Below are positions 35,665 through 46,286 of a stretch of DNA of 64,000 nucleotides, one piece after another. A model generated the notes under the pieces. The model was given only the letters and a program-made list of their open reading frames with translations. It was not told where the DNA came from and made no database searches. How positions within the stretch are numbered: the stretch's first letter is position 1; each line of letters starts with the position of its first letter. Made by a program: the position numbers and the translations under genes. This DNA comes from an uncultured Spartobacteria bacterium (lineage in GTDB: Bacteria; Verrucomicrobiota; Verrucomicrobiia; Chthoniobacterales; Chthoniobacteraceae), in NCBI GenBank assembly GCA_903901425.1, contig CAIURC010000063.1, positions 1-64,000 of the forward strand. Direction: 5' to 3'.

Positions 35665-36633
35665 TCAGGGTTTGATTTGCCGCACAGGCAGCACTGGCTG
35701 GGTTCTGAGGCTCAGAGAGACGTTGTCAACAAACTGGTGTCCGAGTTCCAGAGGGCCCTTCCAACGGTCGGGTTGACACCCTGCCGCGAGATGGATCAAG
35801 GCGAAATCGGCGTTTTTGGTGAGGAGTGTCTTGGTGTGGACGCGGCGCCATGCCGGGTTCTGGCCCCGGCTAAACAGGAATTCCGCGCTGCTGGCCAGAG
35901 CCTGGCCGAGGCTGGCCGGCCAGTCCGGCCCGATCTTGGCGGGGTCTCCCGAAAACAGGCAGATTTTGCACAGAAAATGGATTTCTGGCGATGCCTCGGT
36001 CCGTTCATCCAGAAAGTCGGCTGAGAGCTCCAGAAAAGCCTCGCCCGAGGACAACGCGGAATGCAAAGGCCGGAGATCCACCAGCTGAAAAACATCGCAG
36101 GAACGCGCCGCAGCCGGGTCGGTGGAGCCCTCGGAAAAGGCGGATATCAGACGGAGTGCTCGGGTTCCTTCCGAGTGGGGTACATCTGCGACGGGCGCGG
36201 TTTGGGAGGGATCTCCGGACCATGTCCCAAAGCGGGTTGGAAACCCAGACGGGAGCATCCCCACAGTTTTTTCGAATCCGCCATCCGACATGGAGGAGAC
36301 GCGGGAAATGGTGGCAACGAGTTTTGTGGTGGTCAGCGCCCATGCCAGTGGACTGCCCAGCGCGCCGAGAGTGAGGATCGCTGCAGCCCAGCGCAGAGGC
36401 GCCTTCCACCTGTCCTTGCGGACTGTGGAGGGGAGCGGTGCGGGTTCTGCACCGGAGGACGCTGCGGCCGATCGGAGTGCCGACTCCAGGTTGCAGCGGC
36501 GCCTGAAATCTGAGCGCGCAGCGGCGCTCCCGGCGAGGATTTGCTCCAGTCGAATGGAGTCCTCGTTCCGGATGGTGCCGAGCAAATAGCCATCCACGAG
36601 GGTGCCCCAGTCTTCTGGTAGTGAGTTTTTCAT
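35665..36633 (-). CDS. Membrane-anchored anti-sigma-like protein with extracytoplasmic sensor domain
   Basis: The 322-residue product has a cytoplasmic N-terminal approximately 85 residues (LVDGYLLGTIRNEDSIRLEQIL, typical of the ASD/FecR-type anti-sigma region), one transmembrane helix at about 92-108 (AAAILTLGALGSPLAWALT), and a beta-rich extracytoplasmic domain (about 125-322) containing DGGFEK and FLELSADFLDE segments like LamG or carbohydrate-binding folds. It is coupled to the sigma factor gene by a four-base overlap at 36630-36633. The obvious reading is a sigma regulator that senses an external glycan and controls the DUF1592/DUF1552/SGNH genes downstream. No zinc anti-sigma motif is visible. 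Start ATG 36633 chosen on the overlap. Confidence 0.6.
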   Translation of the reverse strand: MKNSLPEDWGTLVDGYLLGTIRNEDSIRLEQILAGSAAARSDFRRRCNLESALRSAAASSGAEPAPLPSTVRKDRWKAPLRWAAAILTLGALGSPLAWALTTTKLVATISRVSSMSDGGFEKTVGMLPSGFPTRFGTWSGDPSQTAPVADVPHSEGTRALRLISAFSEGSTDPAAARSCDVFQLVDLRPLHSALSSGEAFLELSADFLDERTEASPEIHFLCKICLFSGDPAKIGPDWPASLGQALASSAEFLFSRGQNPAWRRVHTKTLLTKNADFALIHLAAGCQPDRWKGPLELGHQFVDNVSLSLRTQPVLPVRQIKP

Positions 36634-37157
36634 AACGCGGTGGATTCCTGAAGCCGGGTTTCGACGCACGTCAGAAGCTTTTCGCGGAGCCGGCCCAGCA
36701 GTTTGTAGAGGCTGTTGACTGAGCGCGCCGTGGTGTCTGCGATCTTGGAGACACGGCCCTCGCCGCGGTACGGGGCGAGCAGAAGTTCCCGGTGATGCGG
36801 GGCAAAGGAGGTCAGGCAGCGCTCAAGGGCTTCCCGTTCCATTTCCCAAATGTCCTCGGACACTTCAGCCGCTTCCTCGGCCAGGAGGGTGAGCACGTCC
36901 TCGGAAAAATCATGGCGGTCCCGGGAAAAATCGCGCCGGATCCGGAGTCCTTCGAATCGGAGGATCACCTTGGCCCAGGGAAGAAACCCATCGGCATCTT
37001 CGAGTTGTCCGAGTTTGCGCCACATGACGACGCTGGCCTCCTGCATGAGTTCGTCCACGGCTTCCCAGGACGGCATCAGGACACGGGCGTAGGAGCGCAG
37101 GGAGGTTTCGTGGCGGACAAAGAGCCGGAGGAAATCGCTTTCAGGAACGCCTTTCAT
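36630..37157 (-). CDS. Sigma-70 family factor, Rhodopirellula/Verrucomicrobium type
   Basis: The 175-residue product matches the ECF-like sigma group that is expanded in Planctomycetes and Verrucomicrobia. FLRLFVRHETSLRSYARVLMPSWEAVDELMQEASVVMWRK is region 2 (shown here as the segment at about residues 9-48) and the last 60 residues form region 4 (LTSFAPHHRELLL; VSKIADTTARSVNSLYKLLGRLR). These factors typically precede a membrane anti-sigma gene and DUF1592-type operons, as here. Start ATG 37157 is favoured because homology begins immediately; a GTG four codons upstream is possible. The 143-base gap upstream presumably holds the promoter. Confidence 0.85.
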   Translation of the reverse strand: MKGVPESDFLRLFVRHETSLRSYARVLMPSWEAVDELMQEASVVMWRKLGQLEDADGFLPWAKVILRFEGLRIRRDFSRDRHDFSEDVLTLLAEEAAEVSEDIWEMEREALERCLTSFAPHHRELLLAPYRGEGRVSKIADTTARSVNSLYKLLGRLREKLLTCVETRLQESTAL

Positions 37158-37300
37158 GGGGGTACTCACACACTTACTGCCGGCCAGCGGCCGACCTGCC
37201 GAAAAAAGTGGAAAATTTTTGGATTTTTTTGCGGCTCCAGACTGAGGGGCCCTCTGGGGCTTCTTTTTTGGGGCCGGTTTGAGGCAAGCGGGCCGGGATT

Positions 37301-39121
37301 TTACGGGGATGGAATGTGGGAGAGGCCGATCAAGGTTTCGCCTCCGACAAAAGACATTCCCTCCACGGCCTCCCGGGTTTTGGTGGGGGCAAGCGTCACC
37401 ACCAGGTGGCTGAGGCTGCGTCGGACCCGGACTTCGGCGGCATGGGAGGGGAACTGGTTTCTGGCCAGCCAGCGGGAAGCGCAGTCGATGGCCCACGGGT
37501 GCCATGCAAAATTGATGCTTTCTCCTGCGTTCTGAGAAATTCCCAGATGACTCGTGCATGAGGCCCGAAACTCCCCGGCGTCGTATGCATTTTCCTCAGT
37601 CCGCCCGGTCAACCGGTCCAAGTGGGCTTCGATCTGGTTCAGGAGCGTGGCTGGGAGCGGAAACCCGGTCGCGGCTTCTGCCCGGAGCAGTTCGGCGTAG
37701 AGTTGGAGCGTTAACCCCTCGGAAATGGGAACCGAATCCTCATGGGTCCGGCGCCAGCCCCAGATGCCTTTGAATTCGTAGAGGTTGAGGAGAAACTGCG
37801 CGGTTTTCTTCAGAAGCGCGTCCCGGGTTTGGGTGTTGTCTTTCCACGGAAGCGCTGCGGCATGGACCTCCAGCAGGCAATGCAGGCCCAGCGCGGTGGT
37901 GTAGGGGCTGTATTGCCCGGGGATTTTCTGGTTGGGAAAGATGTTCCAGCCGCCCGTGTCCAAAGGACGGTATCGGGGGTTGTCGACCGATTCCTGAGCC
38001 CGGCGCAGGCACTCCAGATACTGTGGCCGGTCCGGCTCAGGAATCAGTCCGGGAGTGCCGAGCGCCCGGGCCAGCATTGCCACCGTCCAAAGTCCGGGTT
38101 CCGCGTAAGTCAACCGGGATTCCTCGCCTTCCTGCCCCCGCCAGCCGTAGCCCTCCACAAAAACCTCGGGATCAAAAAGATACTTGATGTACCGGGTCAG
38201 CAGGGCCCGTTTCTGGTCCGCAGACAACTCCGGGGTCGCCAAAAGTCCGCAGATCGCCTGCGAAGAGCCCCAGACGCTCGAACCCGGATCATTGGGTTTG
38301 CGCAGTTCGGTAGCGATCCTGCCATCGGGGAGTTGGGCTGCATGGATGGCTTGGGCGATCGATGCCCGAGTTTCGGAGGCCGTTTTCCGGACGGTGCCCG
38401 TGTTTTCAAAGGAGCGGAAAAGGGAAAGGTCGTTTTGATCGAGCCAGTCCTGAAGGAATGGGGCTCCGGGCATCTTGGGAAGCGCATCGGCCAGCAGGAC
38501 GTAGCCCAGCAGCGCGAGTCCGGCCACAACGGCAGGCCGGCACTTTTGCCACACCCGGCTCCAGCAGAACGGGCGGTCAATCCAGACCAGAGTGGAGCCC
38601 AGTCCCTTGAGGTGGACGCGGTCTTTGCGGAAGACCCGGGCGAGCGCGGCGTCCCGATGCGCCATGGACTCGAAGGTGGGCGTGTCCAGGGCAAGGCCTT
38701 CGGGACGCGCCATGTTTTGAAGTCGCGCGGCGAGGTTGACTGTCACCCCGTAGTAGTCGTCGGACTTGGAAACCTCGCCTGCCACCACCCCGATCCCGAC
38801 CCGGGTGGGGAGCTTGGAGCCGCCGCCTTCCTCCGCCATCCGGCCGGCCACAAAAGCAGGAAATGCCAGCCGCGCTTTCTGGGCTGTCTGCACCACAAAC
38901 TGAAGGAGATCATGGTCGGGTGTCTGCTCGGTTTCCCAGATGAGCAAGTGGCCGTCGCCCAGGTTTTTCACAAAGGTGGGCGGACGTTCGGTGAAAAGGT
39001 CGAGGATGGTCCGGTGGGCTGCAGCGGCGAATGCCCCCAGATCAGCGGTGGCGATCTTTTTCGAGGCGGCTGTGAAGCCCCGGATGTCGTAGATGAGGAC
39101 AACAGCGGACACCTTGGCCAT
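37301..39121 (-). CDS. Class III nucleotidyl cyclase with N-terminal catalytic domain, one TM helix and large C-terminal helical domain
   Basis: Residues 1-180 form a complete class III cyclase domain: metal Asp12 in YDIRGFT and Asp56 in LGDGHLLIW, purine-selecting Lys52, Asp121/122 before YYG, transition-state Asn129 and Arg133 in VNLAARL. The Lys/Asp pair predicts adenylate rather than guanylate cyclase. One transmembrane helix follows (about 196-213). The remaining approximately 390 residues appear to be an all-helical toroid-like domain (YTTALGLHCLLEVHAA; GGWNIFPNQK; GLWTVAMLARALG) reminiscent of alpha/alpha-barrel glycan or terpenoid-binding folds, expected outside the cytoplasm. Receptor cyclases usually carry the sensor N-terminal and the catalytic domain C-terminal, so this order is inverted. 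No cAMP receptor is nearby. Confidence 0.8.
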   Translation of the reverse strand: MAKVSAVVLIYDIRGFTAASKKIATADLGAFAAAAHRTILDLFTERPPTFVKNLGDGHLLIWETEQTPDHDLLQFVVQTAQKARLAFPAFVAGRMAEEGGGSKLPTRVGIGVVAGEVSKSDDYYGVTVNLAARLQNMARPEGLALDTPTFESMAHRDAALARVFRKDRVHLKGLGSTLVWIDRPFCWSRVWQKCRPAVVAGLALLGYVLLADALPKMPGAPFLQDWLDQNDLSLFRSFENTGTVRKTASETRASIAQAIHAAQLPDGRIATELRKPNDPGSSVWGSSQAICGLLATPELSADQKRALLTRYIKYLFDPEVFVEGYGWRGQEGEESRLTYAEPGLWTVAMLARALGTPGLIPEPDRPQYLECLRRAQESVDNPRYRPLDTGGWNIFPNQKIPGQYSPYTTALGLHCLLEVHAAALPWKDNTQTRDALLKKTAQFLLNLYEFKGIWGWRRTHEDSVPISEGLTLQLYAELLRAEAATGFPLPATLLNQIEAHLDRLTGRTEENAYDAGEFRASCTSHLGISQNAGESINFAWHPWAIDCASRWLARNQFPSHAAEVRVRRSLSHLVVTLAPTKTREAVEGMSFVGGETLIGLSHIPSP

Positions 39122-39179: not shown

Positions 39180-40841
39180 TCAGGGCTGCCGTGGTGGACG
39201 CTTTCCAGGCGGTTCCTCAGGACTGGAGCGGGTAAAACGGACCTTCAACTCGGCCGAGGCCAGCACCCGGCCTTGGAGCGCGGCTTGGAGTGTCTCCAGT
39301 GTGACGGGTGCGTTGGCCGATAGTTCCGGGTCCGCTGAGAGGGCGTACAGGGTGAGGAAATACGACTTTTCACCGGGGCCCTTGGATTGAGGGGGCGCGT
39401 ATTCGCCGCGCCGGTTGATGGAGTTGAGTCCAAAATGGCCGATCGACTGTGCGTTTTTTGGAATCTGGCGGGTTGAGCCCGGAATGTGGTGGAGGATCCA
39501 GTAGCATTTCAACCGGCCCTCAGGATCCACATGGTGCATGGTGAGCGCGTAGCTCTGGGTTCCAGGAGGTGCACCTTGCCATTCCATGGGGGGCGAGATT
39601 CCGGCACCTTCCCCGGTGAACTCGGCGGGCAACGTCCCATCGGATGGCACCGCGGGACTCCGCAGGTTGAACCCCTCCTTTGGCCGTTGCAGGTCCTTGG
39701 CAACCGGTTCGCCAGAGGGTTCCTCTCGGCGAGGCGGTCTTCCCTGCTCGGAATCGCGTGGAGTTCTTCCACGAGATCCATCTGCTGGTTCCCGAGGTTT
39801 TGGGGGGCGGTCCTGATTGCCCGGTGGACGGGCGCCTGCGTTTCGTGCCGTGTAAACTTCCCGGACGGGTGCAGAGTGAGGCGACTGGAACTCAAACGGA
39901 TACGAACCGTCTGGAAGAGCCGAGTAGATCACCTGGTGCTTCTCCCCGCGGATCTCGTAGGAAAGGCGCCAGGTGTTGGGATTCACAGTCTCGTGTCCGG
40001 TGATGCTGGCGCCCCGGAGCGCCTGTAAGGCGGGCCGTACCGGGTTTGCGCGGGGCTGGGGGTCGACTTGGCCATCGCGTTCAATCACTTCTCCGTGGAA
40101 TCCGCCATTCACAAACGGATAGGAGGTGGAAGCGTGGTAATGGTAGCCGAGGGGGGCGTGCTTGTGGCCGCGAAATGTGTCCAGACCCGAGGGGGGCCTG
40201 CCATCCTGCTCCAACGTGCCCACGAGGGGATACCCGTCCAGAGCATAGGCAATCGGGTTGCCCCGGCCCACCACCGGCTCAAGGTGCAGCGGGGCGGCAT
40301 GGTAATGGTAGTCGTCGGCCCGCCCACAATGCCCCCCCCAACGGTCCAGTTCCCCAATCTCAGCGGAAATTTCGCCCCGGTTGTTTTGCGGGTTGAAGAT
40401 CGGTATCCCGTTTGCTGCCAGAGCAATGGCTCCGCGCAGGAACTGGTTGTGGATCGAGCGCGGGTTTTTTGCGGGAACGGGTTGGAGCGGGATCTGCCAT
40501 GCATTGGAGCCGGTGTAGGGCTGGGGCAGGGGCACCTGCTGTTGCCACGCTGTGATGCCGGTCATCATGGGATGGGTGGGCAGGCCGTTCCCTTCCACGT
40601 AAAGGTTCCTGCCGTCCCAACGGACTTGCACGGCCGGGGCGAACTTTTTGAACACAGCAGCCTGGGCGGGTTCGGAGGCGGCGTTGCGCACCGGCACAGC
40701 CGATCCCGAAGGTGGAACTGTGTTTTGGGCGAGAAACCAACGCGGCTGGTTTGTTCCCGCGCTGGAACTGGGGTCATGGGCCGATGCGCCGTGGGCGATC
40801 AGGATGCCAACGAATCGGAGGAGTCGGAAGTGGGCTTGCAT
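39180..40841 (-). CDS. Exported YHYH-domain protein fused to PEBP (YbhB/YbcL-like) domain
   Basis: The 553-residue product has a signal peptide (FRLLRFVGILIAHGASA). A YHYH domain covers about residues 70-300, with DDYHYHA and LGYHYHA motifs and GHKHAP and DGYPL between them, a fold thought to bind metal. A charged, Pro/Arg-rich linker (about 330-385) leads to a C-terminal phosphatidylethanolamine-binding/Raf-kinase-inhibitor-like domain (about 390-540), recognisable by FTGEGAGISPPMEW, HHVDPEGRLKCYWILHHIP and SYFLTLYALSADPEL. I start at ATG 40841 where the signal peptide begins. Both domains occur separately in many bacteria; I do not know an established role for the fusion. It lies 61 bases after the sugar-phosphate operon. 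Confidence 0.82.
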   Translation of the reverse strand: MQAHFRLLRFVGILIAHGASAHDPSSSAGTNQPRWFLAQNTVPPSGSAVPVRNAASEPAQAAVFKKFAPAVQVRWDGRNLYVEGNGLPTHPMMTGITAWQQQVPLPQPYTGSNAWQIPLQPVPAKNPRSIHNQFLRGAIALAANGIPIFNPQNNRGEISAEIGELDRWGGHCGRADDYHYHAAPLHLEPVVGRGNPIAYALDGYPLVGTLEQDGRPPSGLDTFRGHKHAPLGYHYHASTSYPFVNGGFHGEVIERDGQVDPQPRANPVRPALQALRGASITGHETVNPNTWRLSYEIRGEKHQVIYSALPDGSYPFEFQSPHSAPVREVYTARNAGARPPGNQDRPPKPREPADGSRGRTPRDSEQGRPPRREEPSGEPVAKDLQRPKEGFNLRSPAVPSDGTLPAEFTGEGAGISPPMEWQGAPPGTQSYALTMHHVDPEGRLKCYWILHHIPGSTRQIPKNAQSIGHFGLNSINRRGEYAPPQSKGPGEKSYFLTLYALSADPELSANAPVTLETLQAALQGRVLASAELKVRFTRSSPEEPPGKRPPRQP

Positions 40842-40902
40842 GCGCGGGAATTTCTGCTGTCCCGAGACTGCCTGACCCGGCCTGAAGAAAAGGTGAAGAC
40901 GC

Positions 40903-41475
40903 TCAGGGGCGCTGGAGTTCGGGCAGTTCCACAAACGCGTAACAGAGCATGTGCAGGATGTGCATCTGCACGTCCTCAACCCTTCCGTAGTGGGTGTCTT
41001 CGACTACCAATACCTGGTTGGCAATCTCCGAGAGCCGCCCGCGCTTTGCACCGACCAACGCGGCAGTTTCCACACCGTTGGTTCGTGCCCATTCAAACGC
41101 TTTCACCAGGTTGGGCGAATTCCCGCTCACGCTCGCCGCAATCAACAGGTCGCCCGGCCGCGCAAAGTTCATCAACTGCCTGAGGAAACAATCTTCATAG
41201 CTGTAGTCGTTGCCCAGCGCCGTGATCCATGCCGTGTTGTCCGTTAACGACAAAACCCGGACCCGGCGTGGGAGCGCGTCGGAGGAGCATTTTCCGAGGT
41301 CCGTGGCAAAGTGCGAGGCGTTTGCGGCGCTGCCGCCGTTGCCAAGTGCGAACACCTGTGCATCGCGTTTCCAGGCGGACTGGATGCTCTGGGTGAGCCT
41401 TTCGATCGCCTCCAGATTCACGGATTCGAGGGCGCGGTGTTGGGCGGCGATGTAGTTTTGGAGCCAGGTTTTCAT
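40903..41475 (-). CDS. SIS-domain phosphosugar isomerase, GmhA-like
   Basis: The 190-residue product has the single SIS fold of sedoheptulose-7-phosphate isomerase: ALGNGGSAANASHFATDL (phosphate loop and metal-side His), SVSGNSPNLVKAFEWA, and the C-terminal HILHMLCYAFVEL helix with a His equivalent to the GmhA active-site base. GmhA converts sedoheptulose 7-phosphate to D-glycero-D-manno-heptose 7-phosphate. It is the last gene of the five-gene operon, five bases after the ROK gene, next to a heptose-kinase-like PfkB protein, which supports a heptose or related sugar pathway. The glutamate often following QHFA-E in GmhA is Asp here (ATDL). Start ATG 41475. Confidence 0.75.
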   Translation of the reverse strand: MKTWLQNYIAAQHRALESVNLEAIERLTQSIQSAWKRDAQVFALGNGGSAANASHFATDLGKCSSDALPRRVRVLSLTDNTAWITALGNDYSYEDCFLRQLMNFARPGDLLIAASVSGNSPNLVKAFEWARTNGVETAALVGAKRGRLSEIANQVLVVEDTHYGRVEDVQMHILHMLCYAFVELPELQRP

Positions 41476-41480
41476 GGGAT

Positions 41481-42425
41481 TTAGGATGCAGGGTTTCGGA
41501 GACATTGTGCTGCCAGTGCCAGAGCACCAACGGGTACGGCGTCCTCGCGGAGCTCAGAGAGGCGGAGTCCGGGGCCGGGCAGAATCGCGTCCATCAGGAG
41601 CGGGCGGAGGTGGAAATCCACGGCCGTCTTCAGGGGTTCGCCCAGAAGCGAAACGCCGCCTCCAAGGATCAGGATTTCCGGGTTGAACAGGTGGACCACG
41701 TGTGAAAGCGCATGGGCAATATGTCCCGCAGCGGTCTCGAGGATCTGAAGGGCAAATGGATCGTTTTCTGCGATCGCCTGCGCAAGGTGACGCGCCTCGC
41801 CCCCGGGAGAACCGAGGGAGAGTCGGGTAAGTATACTCTCCGGGTTTGTCGCCAAGCCCTCCCGGATGCTCCGGTCAATGCTCCACCCTGAACAGACGTC
41901 CTCCGGCCGGAGCCGGGAACGGTCCAATGCGAGGTGCCCGATCTCGGCTTCCGTGGGCGATGCGCCGTGGTAGATCCGGGCCTCGTGGATCAGGCCGCCT
42001 CCCATCCCTGAACCGATGGTGACGTAGAATACGGGGTCAAAACCCCGGCCCGCGCCGTGCACCGCTTCGCCCAGCGCAGCCGCATTGGCGTCATTCTCCA
42101 CAAACACCGGAAGGCCTGAGATTTCCTTCAGCCATGGTCCGAGCAAAAATCCGGTCCATCCCGGGACATGGTAGGATTTTACGACCTGGCCCGTGCGCCA
42201 GTTGACGGGGCCGCCGTATCCGACGCCGATGGCGGCTGGGTGGTGCAGGGCGATCAACTCTGGGAGAATCCTTTGGATTTCCGACCGGATACCCTCCCCG
42301 CCGCGTTCCGGGTTTACGGTGCAGCGGCGACGGTCCAGAATAGTGCCATGGGAGGTTCCCACGCTGAGTTGAAGTTTTGTGCCGCCGATTTCGATGGCAA
42401 GCAGTCGAGGATGGGGATCGTTCAC
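41481..42425 (-). CDS. ROK family sugar kinase
   Basis: This 314-residue kinase opens with the phosphate-binding AIEIGGTKLQLSVG and has the catalytic ENDANAAALGE and IGSGMGGGLI segments of ROK glucokinase/N-acetylmannosamine-kinase enzymes. The usual zinc-binding CxCGxxGCxE motif after EIGHL is degenerate: only one Cys remains (RPEDVCSGWS), so metal binding is probably lost or altered. Start is GTG 42425, overlapping the PfkB stop (GTGA at 42422-42425). A second sugar kinase in the same operon is notable, since a GmhA/HldE route needs only one. Substrate unknown. Confidence 0.85.
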   Translation of the reverse strand: MNDPHPRLLAIEIGGTKLQLSVGTSHGTILDRRRCTVNPERGGEGIRSEIQRILPELIALHHPAAIGVGYGGPVNWRTGQVVKSYHVPGWTGFLLGPWLKEISGLPVFVENDANAAALGEAVHGAGRGFDPVFYVTIGSGMGGGLIHEARIYHGASPTEAEIGHLALDRSRLRPEDVCSGWSIDRSIREGLATNPESILTRLSLGSPGGEARHLAQAIAENDPFALQILETAAGHIAHALSHVVHLFNPEILILGGGVSLLGEPLKTAVDFHLRPLLMDAILPGPGLRLSELREDAVPVGALALAAQCLRNPAS

Positions 42426-43462
42426 AGGGTTTGGGATGGGGGGAGCGAGGGGAGCAGTCGGAGAATGTCCGGTCTGGTGGCGCTTCCGGAGGTGCCGAGT
42501 TGGTGGACCACGTGGGAGCAGGCCAGCATCGCGAGTTGCAAAGATTCCACGGTGTTGGCGCCCGCTGCGGTTGCCGCCGCCAGATTTGCCGTGACGCAGT
42601 CCCCGGCGCCCACCACGTCGATGGGCCCGCGCACCGGCAGTGCAGGGACCAGAATCGGTTCTGTCTTGCCGGGTTCGGCACAGACGATACCCCGTTCTGA
42701 GAGCGTGACGCAGACCGGTTGGCCGCTCCGGTCCGCCAGCGCCTGGGCCGCGCTCCCGCACCGCGCGGGGGAGTGGTCCTTGAGCCCCACCAGTCCAGCC
42801 AGTTCCGCCGCGTTGAGTTTGAGGCGGCAGGCCGGAAACCTGCCGAGCCCCGATCGGCTGTCTGCAAACACCGGGATGCCGGGGTGCGCTGCCGACAGAC
42901 GCCCGAGGGCCTCCAAGACCCGGCTCGTCACGGTGCCGGTTTCAGGGAGATCCACCTGGTCCATCACCACCACGGCTGCGCACTCGGGGAAAACCATCTC
43001 CAAGGCGGCCACAAGCGAATCCGAGACGGGCTCCGGCGTTGGAGACCAGTTCTTGATGTCCAGCCGGCTGAGTTCAACGGGTGCGACCCCAGGGGAAATC
43101 AGGAGCGGTTTGACGTAGGTGAAAGTCCGGCGGAGCGGGGTCTCCATGAAAAACCGGGGATCCACCCCAGGCAGAGAGCAGACGGCGGACCGCAGCTCAA
43201 ATCCTTCGCCGTCCCGGCCATGAAACCCAATGGGGACGATCGAGCCGATTCCGAGGGCGGAAAGGTTGTTCAAGACCGTGCCCGCGGCACCGGGTTGGGG
43301 ACGGATTCGGGTGACATTGTGGACAGGGAGCCCGGTTTCGATGGAGGTCTCTGAACGGGCCGGGTCGATTTCGAGGTAGCGGTCCAGACAGAAGTCGCCC
43401 AGCACCGCAATCTTTAGACGGGGGAAACGGCCGAGGAGAAATTCGAGGCGTTCTTGGGTCAT
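42422..43462 (-). CDS. PfkB-family kinase resembling heptose-7-phosphate kinase (HldE/RfaE N-domain)
   Basis: The 346-residue protein has the ribokinase fold with AVLGDFCLDRYL at the start, PGAAGTVLNNLSALG (sugar binding), LKLNAAELAGL and the anion-hole/catalytic-base motif DVVGAGD near residue 280. The entry GDFCLDRY and the PGAAG block resemble the kinase half of HldE, which phosphorylates heptose 7-phosphate at C1, but there is no C-terminal nucleotidyltransferase domain. It overlaps the gene on each side by four bases. Whether the sugar is a heptose is inference from the neighbouring GmhA-like and HAD genes. Confidence 0.78.
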   Translation of the reverse strand: MTQERLEFLLGRFPRLKIAVLGDFCLDRYLEIDPARSETSIETGLPVHNVTRIRPQPGAAGTVLNNLSALGIGSIVPIGFHGRDGEGFELRSAVCSLPGVDPRFFMETPLRRTFTYVKPLLISPGVAPVELSRLDIKNWSPTPEPVSDSLVAALEMVFPECAAVVVMDQVDLPETGTVTSRVLEALGRLSAAHPGIPVFADSRSGLGRFPACRLKLNAAELAGLVGLKDHSPARCGSAAQALADRSGQPVCVTLSERGIVCAEPGKTEPILVPALPVRGPIDVVGAGDCVTANLAAATAAGANTVESLQLAMLACSHVVHQLGTSGSATRPDILRLLPSLPPSQTL

Positions 43463-44568
43463 GGCCGTGTGAGTGCGGCAAAGAGGGCATGGAGGAAAGC
43501 CACATTGTCGCACTGGTGGTAAATCATCGGGGCCTGCATTCTGGAAAAGCTTTTGCAGAAGCGCAGGTAATAGGCGGGATGATTTTTTGGGGGTTCCCCC
43601 GCCGACCAATCCCACCCGCCATTGTCCTGAAGGTCGACCACGTCGATGGAGTGCCCGTGGACGATCGGTCGTCCTGTCTGAAGGCGGAGGTTGTTCACGC
43701 AACTGAGGGATTTTTCGAATACCTGAGGGCCCATCACCGCCGAGCCGATACAGAGCACCACACCATCGTCCAGAAGGTCGGCCGATGCTCCAAACACCCG
43801 GAAATCCAAGCCGCCCGCGCGGCCAATCGCGCTGCCGGTGAAAAGGGGGTGGTTGGAAATAATGTCGTATCCGATGCCCGGATGAACGGTGGCCGGGACA
43901 CCGTGGCGCCATGCGGAGGCAAGGATGGAGGCTTCGGGGTGCCGGTGTTCCACCCGCATCGGGCCGGGACGCAGCAAGCCGGACTCAAGGGCGCCCAGCA
44001 GGTCCGCCCGCGCAGAAGCCAGAGGGTGCCTTGGTTCTCGCGCAAGGCTTGCCGCCAGCGAGTCCGCATCCGGAAGAACAGCGCCGTTCTCACAGATGAA
44101 CCTTCCCACTGCCGCCCCGTAGCCGAGTTGATCCAGCGCGCCTGCCAGAAGCGCGGCATGGAGGCAGACTGCGGTTTCCTCCCAAATCCCGAAGGTCCCT
44201 GCCGCCACGTTCTGTTCGACGCTCTCGGTGGACACGCCCGACCACGCAAACTCCCAGTCATGAATGGAGCCTGCCCCGTTGGTGGCAAGATGGGTAACCC
44301 AGTTTTTTTCCAATAAACGGTCTACAATCAGGGCTGCGCCATTGCGGAGCAGGTGGGCACCGTAAATCAGAAAAACAGCGGCCCCCTTTTCACGCGCGCG
44401 CCGGACGCGCTCCGCGCATTCCTGGACGGATTCCTGCAGCGGTCCAGAAAGGAGGGGCGGCGGGGAATCTGGATTGATGAGCACGTCCACTGCGCGCGAA
44501 AGGCTCTTGCGCTCCTGCAGTGGCCGGATCCGGAGCCTTCCAAGGTCGAGTGCGGAATGGGGGATCAT
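43459..44568 (-). CDS. Deoxyhypusine-synthase-like protein of unknown activity
   Basis: The 369-residue product resembles the bacterial deoxyhypusine-synthase-like family. THLATNGAGSIHDWEFA, then TESVEQNVAAGTFGIWEET, then VPATVHPGIGYDIISNHP and VVLCIGSAVMGPQVFEKSLS correspond to the family's NAD-binding Rossmann blocks. The true enzyme uses NAD and spermidine to modify eIF5A, which bacteria lack. The C-terminal catalytic-lysine segment of eukaryotic enzymes (EFDGSDSG region) is not recognisable, so spermidine chemistry is doubtful. The gene is locked between PfkB and HAD genes by ATGA overlaps on both sides, which strongly suggests a role in the same pathway, perhaps an NAD-dependent step on a sugar phosphate. 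Confidence 0.65.
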   Translation of the reverse strand: MIPHSALDLGRLRIRPLQERKSLSRAVDVLINPDSPPPLLSGPLQESVQECAERVRRAREKGAAVFLIYGAHLLRNGAALIVDRLLEKNWVTHLATNGAGSIHDWEFAWSGVSTESVEQNVAAGTFGIWEETAVCLHAALLAGALDQLGYGAAVGRFICENGAVLPDADSLAASLAREPRHPLASARADLLGALESGLLRPGPMRVEHRHPEASILASAWRHGVPATVHPGIGYDIISNHPLFTGSAIGRAGGLDFRVFGASADLLDDGVVLCIGSAVMGPQVFEKSLSCVNNLRLQTGRPIVHGHSIDVVDLQDNGGWDWSAGEPPKNHPAYYLRFCKSFSRMQAPMIYHQCDNVAFLHALFAALTRP

Positions 44569-45386
44569 CGGCCCAGAAGATGGTTTACGAGGGAAACGGC
44601 GTCGCGGTAGTCCGGGATCGCAGCATCTGCCCCGGACTCGAGCAGTTGCGTGAGTTTGTAGGGGTGGGGAATCCCAGAGCCGTTGTTTTCCTCGTCGCTG
44701 CAAACGGCGACAGCGAGCCCGCCGAGTTGTTTGGTGCACTCGATTTCCACGGGGCCGTCGCCAAACGCGAGCAGGTTCTCGCCTCCGATCTTTTCCGAGG
44801 CGAGGATGCGCTCAAAGACCTCCAGTTTGCTGAATCCCGTCGGGTCGGGTGCGCTCCCGTAAATGTGGTTTCCAAAAAAGCAGGTTAATCCGAGCGCTTC
44901 CGCCTCTTGCCGGACCCGGTATTCGACCGAGCTACTCAGGATGACCAGAGTCAGGCCCAGCGAGGACAGGTGTTCAAGCAGGGGCCGCGCGCCGTGGACC
45001 ACATAAGCGTCTTCTGCGCACCGTCCATCCGCCATCGCATCCAGACGCTCTTGGATCCGGGCGTCCAGAGCCGTCTGGAAATGGTTCCTGAGCGTTTCCG
45101 GGGCCGGGCAGGATGCGGCTTCAGCGGCAAAGCGCTGCATCTGGAGCAGGGATGGTTTGCCGTTCATTCCATAAACAATCGATTCCATCTGGGTGGTCCA
45201 CTCGGGCCGCCCTGTTTCCTCGGGCCGGGGCCAGTGGGCGCGGAACGTTTCAAACATGAGTTCTGGCCAGCCGTGGCGGACCCAGGAGAGCGTGCCGTCA
45301 AAATCAAAGACCACGTGCGAAATGGTAGTGCGCGGCGCGCAACGGACCAAAACGCCGGGAGTGGGGAAGGAGGGGGATCCGTTCAT
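44565..45386 (-). CDS. HAD-superfamily phosphatase
   Basis: The 273-residue protein has the HAD motifs in order: VVFDFDGTLSW (motif I, nucleophile Asp in DFDGT), VILSSS (motif II), a Lys in GFSKLEVFERI (motif III) and LAFGDGPVEIE (motif IV). A helical cap lies between motifs I and II. The entry DFDGTLSWVRHGW is like HAD proteins found beside sugar-phosphate kinases. It is the first gene of the five-gene operon and overlaps the deoxyhypusine-synthase-like gene by four bases. It could play the role of GmhB (removing the 7-phosphate from a bisphosphate) although it is not closely GmhB-like. Only 48 bases separate it from the divergent PAS-AraC gene. Confidence 0.8.
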   Translation of the reverse strand: MNGSPSFPTPGVLVRCAPRTTISHVVFDFDGTLSWVRHGWPELMFETFRAHWPRPEETGRPEWTTQMESIVYGMNGKPSLLQMQRFAAEAASCPAPETLRNHFQTALDARIQERLDAMADGRCAEDAYVVHGARPLLEHLSSLGLTLVILSSSVEYRVRQEAEALGLTCFFGNHIYGSAPDPTGFSKLEVFERILASEKIGGENLLAFGDGPVEIECTKQLGGLAVAVCSDEENNGSGIPHPYKLTQLLESGADAAIPDYRDAVSLVNHLLGR

Positions 45387-45434: not shown

Positions 45435-46286
45435 ATGCCAAAAGCGACATTACTGCGTCCCTTTTCAGGACCCGAAAGAAGCACGGCCGAGATCAAACGC
45501 TGGCGCCAACGCCGGGAGGCATGGACGAGAAAAATCCAGCATGCGGAATTTTTCCTGCAACTCTTTGAGCAGATTCCTGGGGTCCATTTCTTTGCAAAAG
45601 ACCGGGACGGCCACCTGATGTACGCGAGTCGCGGGCTGCTGGACCGGTACGGGTTTGAGGAGGAACAGGAGTTTCTGGGGCGGACGGATTACGACATCAA
45701 TCCGGGATGCATGGCCGAGGCGTACGTGGCGGATGACCGGCGGATTCTGGGGGGAGAGGTGGATGCGGTTGAGCGGATTGAGCTCTGGTGGGATCGCCAG
45801 GGAATGCCGGACTGGTTTCTGGTCAGCAAGCGGGTGGTGCGTGACCGCGAGGGGCGGATCCACGGCGTGGCCGGGGTCCTGCGAAGGCCTCAGGATTTTG
45901 AGCGTTCACTGCCCGTGTTTGAGGGCGTCTCCAAGGCTGTTGAAATCATCCGCCACAAGTTTGCAGACGGTATCCGAATTGCGGATGTGGCCCGGCAGTG
46001 CGGCCGCTCGCTCCGCCAGTTGCAGCGCCAGTTTCATTCTGCGTTGGGTCTCAGCCCCCAGGATTTCCTCACCCGGACCCGGGTTTTGGCGGCGATGCGG
46101 TTTCTGGAGGAGACGGTCTTGAGTTGTGCGGAGATTACTGTGCGCTGTGGGTTTGTGGATCCGAGCGCATTCAGCGCGCATTTCCTGCACTGGGTGGGGG
46201 CGACTCCCATGGAATACCGGCGGCGGAGCGGAATCCAAAAAACAAAAGGGCCGGGCCGGGGAAAACCCCGGACCCGGCCCGAGTGA
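45435..46286 (+). CDS. AraC-family regulator with N-terminal PAS domain
   Basis: The 283-residue protein has a PAS domain at about residues 35-160 (FFLQLFEQIPGVHFFAKDRDGHLMYAS; FLGRTDYDINPGCMAEAYVADDRRI). The C-terminal AraC DNA-binding domain covers about 170-265, with two helix-turn-helix units (IRIADVARQCGRSLRQLQRQF; SCAEITVRCGFVDPSAFSAHF). PAS-AraC proteins of this form are common in Verrucomicrobia and Planctomycetes. Divergent placement suggests that it controls the sugar-phosphate operon and itself. The last residues (GPGRGKPRTRPE) are encoded by a terminator hairpin belonging to the opposite strand. Start ATG 45435. Confidence 0.85.
   Translation: MPKATLLRPFSGPERSTAEIKRWRQRREAWTRKIQHAEFFLQLFEQIPGVHFFAKDRDGHLMYASRGLLDRYGFEEEQEFLGRTDYDINPGCMAEAYVADDRRILGGEVDAVERIELWWDRQGMPDWFLVSKRVVRDREGRIHGVAGVLRRPQDFERSLPVFEGVSKAVEIIRHKFADGIRIADVARQCGRSLRQLQRQFHSALGLSPQDFLTRTRVLAAMRFLEETVLSCAEITVRCGFVDPSAFSAHFLHWVGATPMEYRRRSGIQKTKGPGRGKPRTRPE
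46237..46280 (-). terminator. Strong intrinsic terminator embedded in the 3' end of the AraC gene
   Basis: Bases 46248-46261 pair with 46266-46280 (14 base pairs of G/C with one bulged A) around an AAAA loop. On the minus strand the hairpin is followed by TTTTGTTTTTT (46247-46237). It therefore terminates the minus-strand exported-protein gene ending at 46323, yet lies inside the coding sequence of the convergent AraC-type gene. Confidence 0.85.

Follow-up and report, generated by a model that had tools for sequence, protein, structure and literature searches.

What a compact set of sugar-phosphate genes makes, and why a protein resembling deoxyhypusine synthase (DHS) stands among them, is the question raised by positions 40,903 to 45,386 of the window, a stretch of 64,000 nucleotides of DNA from an uncultured Spartobacteria bacterium (assembly GCA_903901425.1, contig CAIURC010000063.1). 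An even chance is given here to the reading that this operon forms a self-contained module for sugar phosphates, which would be a paralogue of the early part of ADP-heptose biosynthesis and lead to a heptose-type product. The broader finding concerns the GSU2086 family as such, to which the DHS-like protein belongs, and its near-complementarity with the heptose enzyme HldD. All five open reading frames (ORFs) of the operon lie on the minus strand and, as read from the sequence, are joined by ATGA, ATGA, and GTGA overlaps followed by a gap of 5 nucleotides. These genes and junctions, described earlier in a sequence-only reading of the window, proved real on the basis of the ORF coordinates and, for four of the genes, of Pfam matches; the second gene had no Pfam family above threshold in the Pfam scan. 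The features are the following.

45386-44565, minus strand: HAD-superfamily phosphatase of the C1-cap type, 273 amino acids (Pfam Hydrolase, 1.1e-13; structure model)
44565-44568, minus strand: ATGA overlap of the HAD and GSU2086 genes (sequence)
44568-43459, minus strand: long-branch GSU2086-family protein with a DHS/AgrE fold of the nicotinamide adenine dinucleotide (NAD)-dependent type, 369 amino acids (NF052581; structure model; tree)
43459-43462, minus strand: ATGA overlap of the GSU2086 and PfkB genes (sequence)
43462-42422, minus strand: PfkB kinase of a distinct HldA-like subfamily, 346 amino acids (Pfam PfkB, 8e-17)
42422-42425, minus strand: GTGA overlap of the PfkB and ROK genes (sequence)
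42425-41481, minus strand: ROK-family sugar kinase with a GTG start, 314 amino acids (PF00480, 1.9e-42)
41476-41480, minus strand: gap of 5 nucleotides between the ROK and SIS genes (sequence)
41475-40903, minus strand: GmhA-like SIS isomerase of a distinct subfamily, 190 amino acids (Pfam SIS_2, 6e-18)
45435-46286, plus strand: divergent AraC-type regulator with a PAS domain, 48 base pairs from the HAD start (PF12833, PF00165, PF08448)

The second protein matched the GSU2086 family (NCBIfam NF052581) with 302.2 bits (cut-off 250) over model positions 2-300 of 301. Its structure was modelled with a predicted local distance difference test score (pLDDT) of 89.7 and a predicted template modelling score of 0.90, and a structure search with this model retrieved the ornithine cyclodeaminase domain of AgrE/ArgZ as the nearest solved fold (6lrf; Z-score 19.5, 222 residues, 3.4 Å). 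DHS structures matched with Z-scores of 17-18.5 overall (archaeal DHS 7cmc, 18.2; human DHS, 17-18), and a weak AgrE-type match (PF21570) was found at residues 50-113, at 18.4 bits and under the Pfam cut-off of 27. The fold is that of an NAD-dependent class, with a probable NAD site and putative redox activity. Identity as a DHS was rejected, as there was no PF01916 match at an E-value of 0.01 and a true DHS is encoded on another contig of the same genome, with which the protein had no significant profile match (hhalign probability 1.2%). The earlier description as a deoxyhypusine-synthase-like protein with an NAD fold was therefore borne out for the fold and not for the family.

The GSU2086 family consists of two branches, a short one (about 300 amino acids) versus a long one (about 370 amino acids), which are split by one fully supported branch (Shimodaira-Hasegawa-like approximate likelihood ratio test, 100 for the long clade). 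The window protein belongs to the long branch, which has an extra segment of about 45-50 residues at about residues 160-207, and a short copy is carried on contig C98 of the same genome. Residues common to both branches in the alignment include H72, H103, D104, E106, H229, D235, K286, and R336, and the glycine-rich motifs are likewise kept in both. This conservation suggests that the long and short forms share their chemistry. Relatives of the long protein were absent from the viral contigs searched. Nothing in the literature searched linked heptose or GmhA to a DHS-like protein, and a single paper of it named GSU2086.

It is the short branch that ties this family to heptose biosynthesis. On contig C98 (L051:10014-11971), the short GSU2086 gene directly precedes a gene for an HldA-type kinase (334 bits with TIGR02198, cut-off 345), and of 30 short loci retrieved for the family of the window's bacterium, 27 have it directly beside HldA. 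Similarly, it is located directly before HldE in several Planctomycetota, and this arrangement was found with HldD missing in six genomes (G112, G101, G110, G106, G144, and G133); a canonical cluster in the order HldD-GmhB-GmhA-HldE is found in genome G098. In Geobacter sulfurreducens, GSU2085 (hldE), GSU2086, and GSU2087 (gmhA) are consecutive genes of one operon, with similar transposon-sequencing defects (values of -3.1, -3.2, and -3.7, respectively), and are among the genes affecting electrode growth (PMC5585712).

The distribution of the short form is nearly complementary to that of HldD. Among 97 relatives, 2 had both genes, 34 short GSU2086 only, 55 HldD only, and 6 neither, so that HldD occurred in 2 of the 36 relatives with short GSU2086 versus 55 of the 61 without it (Fisher 1e-17, uncorrected for phylogeny; G035, where short GSU2086 is represented by an ambiguous fragment alone, counted as without). 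HldC was present in 90 of these 97 relatives. In the family of the window's bacterium, HldD was present in both G008 and G019, which lacked short GSU2086, and the other two genomes without it, G026 (73% complete) and G035, had neither gene. A second set was made up of 50 genomes with a long GSU2086, the majority from Planctomycetota and Verrucomicrobiota; it included the genome of the window and overlapped with the 97 relatives in at least one genome. Here, 17 had short GSU2086, 17 had HldD, and none had both (Fisher 1e-4, without phylogenetic correction). Strict mutual exclusion was rejected, since three of four additional genomes of the phylum (G199, G509, and G303) had both genes, the fourth (G469) having short GSU2086 only. 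The simplest reading of this near-complementary occurrence is that short GSU2086 performs the HldD step or makes HldD unneeded. The short form may thus be an alternative HldD, as a candidate for non-orthologous replacement, and the long form may be a similar NAD-dependent enzyme acting on another sugar phosphate. Indeed, HldD works through a transient oxidation using a bound nicotinamide cofactor, which, together with the internal NAD redox cycles of the DHS and AgrE folds, makes epimerase chemistry plausible by analogy for short GSU2086.

The genome of the window has a heptose set apart from the operon, encompassing the short GSU2086-HldA pair on C98, a canonical GmhA on contig C37 (176 bits with TIGR00441, also under the cut-off of 209.45), and HldC on contig C208, the sole TIGR02199 match in this genome. 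These separate genes and the link of the family to heptose genes make the window operon look like a parallel module. Its isomerase and kinase depart from the canonical enzymes in a consistent way. Operon-linked SIS proteins form a group of their own, with SHFxTD(L/V)GK and HYGRVED in place of the FATE and ARIQEAH of canonical GmhA; thus, FATE is changed to FATD and RIQE to RVED, and the later LLH/HMLC-type histidine is retained. The altered positions presumably make up the zinc site of GmhA. An active-site zinc is present in GmhA (PMC11056994). Similarly, the nearest solved structure to the window PfkB kinase is HldA (4e84), and the consensus of 50 operon-type copies has ExSIETGLPVxxV in place of the HldA loop ISPEAPVPVV, GAGD being retained. 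These motif changes speak for a substrate of the operon that differs from the one used by the canonical set. The HAD protein (pLDDT 89.8) has a conserved DxDGT motif and its best PDB matches are sugar phosphatases resembling beta-phosphoglucomutase (Z-scores 18-22). Identity as GmhB was rejected for it, with neither a TIGR01656 nor a TIGR00213 match (NCBIfam, E-value 0.01) and a C1-cap sugar-phosphatase fold. The relatives of the ROK protein are glucokinase and N-acetylmannosamine kinase. The sequence-only reading had named GmhA, HldE, and a HAD phosphatase as three heptose steps; this holds for the classes of the GmhA-like SIS and HldA-like PfkB proteins and fails for the HAD protein, which is not of the GmhB type. 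It had also noted that a nucleotidyltransferase is missing, which is true of the operon and not of the genome, given HldC on C208.

Conservation of gene order was counted in 80 loci from separate species. The HAD, long GSU2086, and PfkB genes were adjacent and co-directional in 32 of these (17 Verrucomicrobiota, 13 Planctomycetota, and 2 Lentisphaerota), which indicates that the grouping exceeds chance. Core plus SIS was found in seven loci and core plus ROK and SIS in two; in the latter, the full five-gene set had the order ROK-SIS-HAD-GSU2086-PfkB, a circular permutation of that in the window. A common gene order across phyla, as anticipated from the window alone, was hence found for the three-gene core, the full set being rare (2 of the 80 loci). 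In two loci, PfkB and HAD are one fused protein encoded before long GSU2086 (L032, 10649-12775; L033, 6413-8362), which supports a joint function. In addition, an HldD gene is located directly beside long GSU2086 in L060, L076, and G127 (the last from coordinates). A parallel heptose-type module is proposed because long GSU2086 is sister to the heptose-linked short branch, the core is conserved, and HldD adjoins long GSU2086 in these three genomes.

In the proposed module, the ROK kinase would convert a free sugar into a sugar phosphate, or serve in salvage, and the GmhA-like SIS protein would interconvert ketose and aldose phosphates. The HldA-like PfkB kinase would then place a phosphate onto the anomeric (or another) hydroxyl, and the HAD phosphatase would remove the other phosphate. 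For long GSU2086, the proposed part is an NAD-dependent, redox-neutral reaction with one of the intermediates as substrate, most likely an epimerisation via a transient keto-sugar. A rare sugar of the heptose type (less likely a hexose), or its 1-phosphate, would result, and the divergent AraC/PAS regulator would control the operon. A further, tentative proposal, considered possible though doubtful, extends to the whole family, namely that GSU2086 proteins are NAD-dependent sugar-phosphate epimerases of the DHS fold, of which the short form replaces HldD for L-glycero-D-manno-heptose, before or at the nucleotide-sugar stage, and the long form, with its dedicated isomerase, kinase, and phosphatase, provides Planctomycetota and Verrucomicrobiota with a heptose-type sugar not described before. 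As for the variant heptose or rare-sugar pathway with a novel NAD step that was initially suggested for the window, the short branch (through HldA, HldE, and the Geobacter operon) links the family to heptose genes and the fold is of the NAD-dependent type; heptose identity and NAD catalysis stay conjectural.

Homologues of the AraC/PAS regulator, 42-54% identical, accompany the operon in L046-L050, L054, and L102, and a weaker one is present in L045; L047 and L054, as well as L049 and L102, are apparently from the same genomes. In L032 and L033, a LacI-type regulator is encoded directly upstream of the PfkB-HAD fusion. With such regulators at the operon, the unit is probably regulated by a signal, and a role in sugar utilisation is possible. 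Among other neighbours, a glucose-6-phosphate dehydrogenase with a C-terminal cyclic-nucleotide-binding domain is encoded directly upstream of the SIS gene in L116 (6514-8451). Genes of the DHS or homospermidine-synthase type, recognised by eye, occur within a few kilobases of long GSU2086 in L055 (14336-15511) and immediately before it in L117 (8897-9988), and NifH-type and apparent nitrogenase-like genes lie a few kilobases from a lone long GSU2086 in L034 (944-6348). Downstream of the operon in the window, one protein (39180-40979) combines a YHYH domain with a phosphatidylethanolamine-binding-protein domain; the TTG start of its ORF overlaps the SIS gene, so that the true start is probably further in. 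In another (37301-39121), near a sigma-70-like gene (36630-37559), a catalytic domain of the nucleotide-cyclase type is combined with a long C-terminal region that had no Pfam match.

Several observations weigh against a heptose-type module. The window SIS protein (102.6 bits with TIGR00441, cut-off 209.45) and PfkB kinase (118.9 bits with TIGR02198, cut-off 345) score far under the levels of GmhA and HldA, respectively, and a heptose substrate is therefore not established. Furthermore, SIS and ROK genes adjoin the core in only the seven and two loci mentioned above, and none of the partners was found in 19 of the 47 well-flanked loci, so that long GSU2086 often works with genes located elsewhere or alone. 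No recurrent nucleotidyltransferase or glycosyltransferase was noticed among the clusters near long GSU2086 (100 loci). Finally, the AraC and LacI regulators would fit sugar utilisation just as well. An inducible carbohydrate-utilisation operon, in which ROK, SIS, a GSU2086 epimerase, and PfkB channel an uncommon hexose or pentose towards central metabolism and the HAD phosphatase acts as a relief valve, is a somewhat unlikely rival that draws on the divergent AraC/PAS regulator in several loci, the LacI-type regulator upstream of PfkB-HAD, the glucose-6-phosphate dehydrogenase gene just upstream of SIS in L116, and the usual role of ROK proteins as hexose kinases. However, catabolic routes do not usually have a phosphatase of their own that is fused or coupled to the kinase, no aldolase was noticed among the recurrent neighbours in the 100 loci, and the other GSU2086 branch is tied to heptose genes.

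A plain second heptose front end, supplying ordinary D-glycero-D-manno-heptose 1-phosphate to the HldC of the genome, would suit the enzyme classes, which are those of GmhA and HldA plus a phosphatase, and a TIGR02199 nucleotidyltransferase in 46 of the 50 long-form genomes. It is nevertheless improbable, in that GmhA, HldA, and HldC are already present in the genome, the conserved SIS and PfkB substitutions affect motifs for which binding of metal or substrate is expected, and G119, with a complete ROK-SIS-HAD-GSU2086-PfkB cluster, has no TIGR02199 match. That the DHS-fold gene encodes a polyamine or deoxyhypusine-type enzyme, placed in a sugar operon by chance, could be argued from the fold similarity to DHS and the DHS-like genes in L055 and L117 (by eye, sequence only). 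The lack of family-level and profile matches to DHS, the separate DHS gene, and linkage to sugar-phosphate genes in several phyla make this very improbable.

The preferred heptose-type module thus resembles the ADP-L-glycero-D-manno-heptose pathway (GmhA, HldA/HldE, GmhB, HldC, and HldD) in its GmhA-like isomerase, HldA-like PfkB kinase, and phosphatase, and in an NAD-fold protein whose family is linked to that pathway through the short branch. It differs in that the operon lacks the nucleotidyltransferase HldC/HldE, its HAD protein falls outside the GmhB subfamily, a ROK kinase and long GSU2086 are added, the SIS and PfkB motifs are changed, and the canonical set stands separately in the same genome. 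With the Geobacter hldE-GSU2086-gmhA operon, the window protein shares the family, scoring above its curated cut-off, and the partner classes; it differs in that it belongs to the long-branch clade and is partnered by a HAD phosphatase and a divergent PfkB kinase instead of HldE. With DHS (PF01916), the protein shares the fold and a probable NAD site, without a family-level sequence match and with other genomic partners. The ornithine cyclodeaminase domain of AgrE/ArgZ (PF21570, TIGR00300), its closest solved fold, is NAD-dependent as well but acts on an amino acid, and the window protein has no arginine dihydrolase domain.

The synthesis of heptose is described in textbooks and is a target for drugs. 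If GSU2086 indeed tracks HldA or HldE and occurs where HldD is lacking, this would account for the completion of the pathway in many bacteria, and GSU2086 would, to our knowledge, be the first enzyme with a DHS fold for which activity on sugars is shown. The operon of the long branch, in turn, suggests that phyla abundant in the environment have a second heptose-type pathway, so far uncharacterised.

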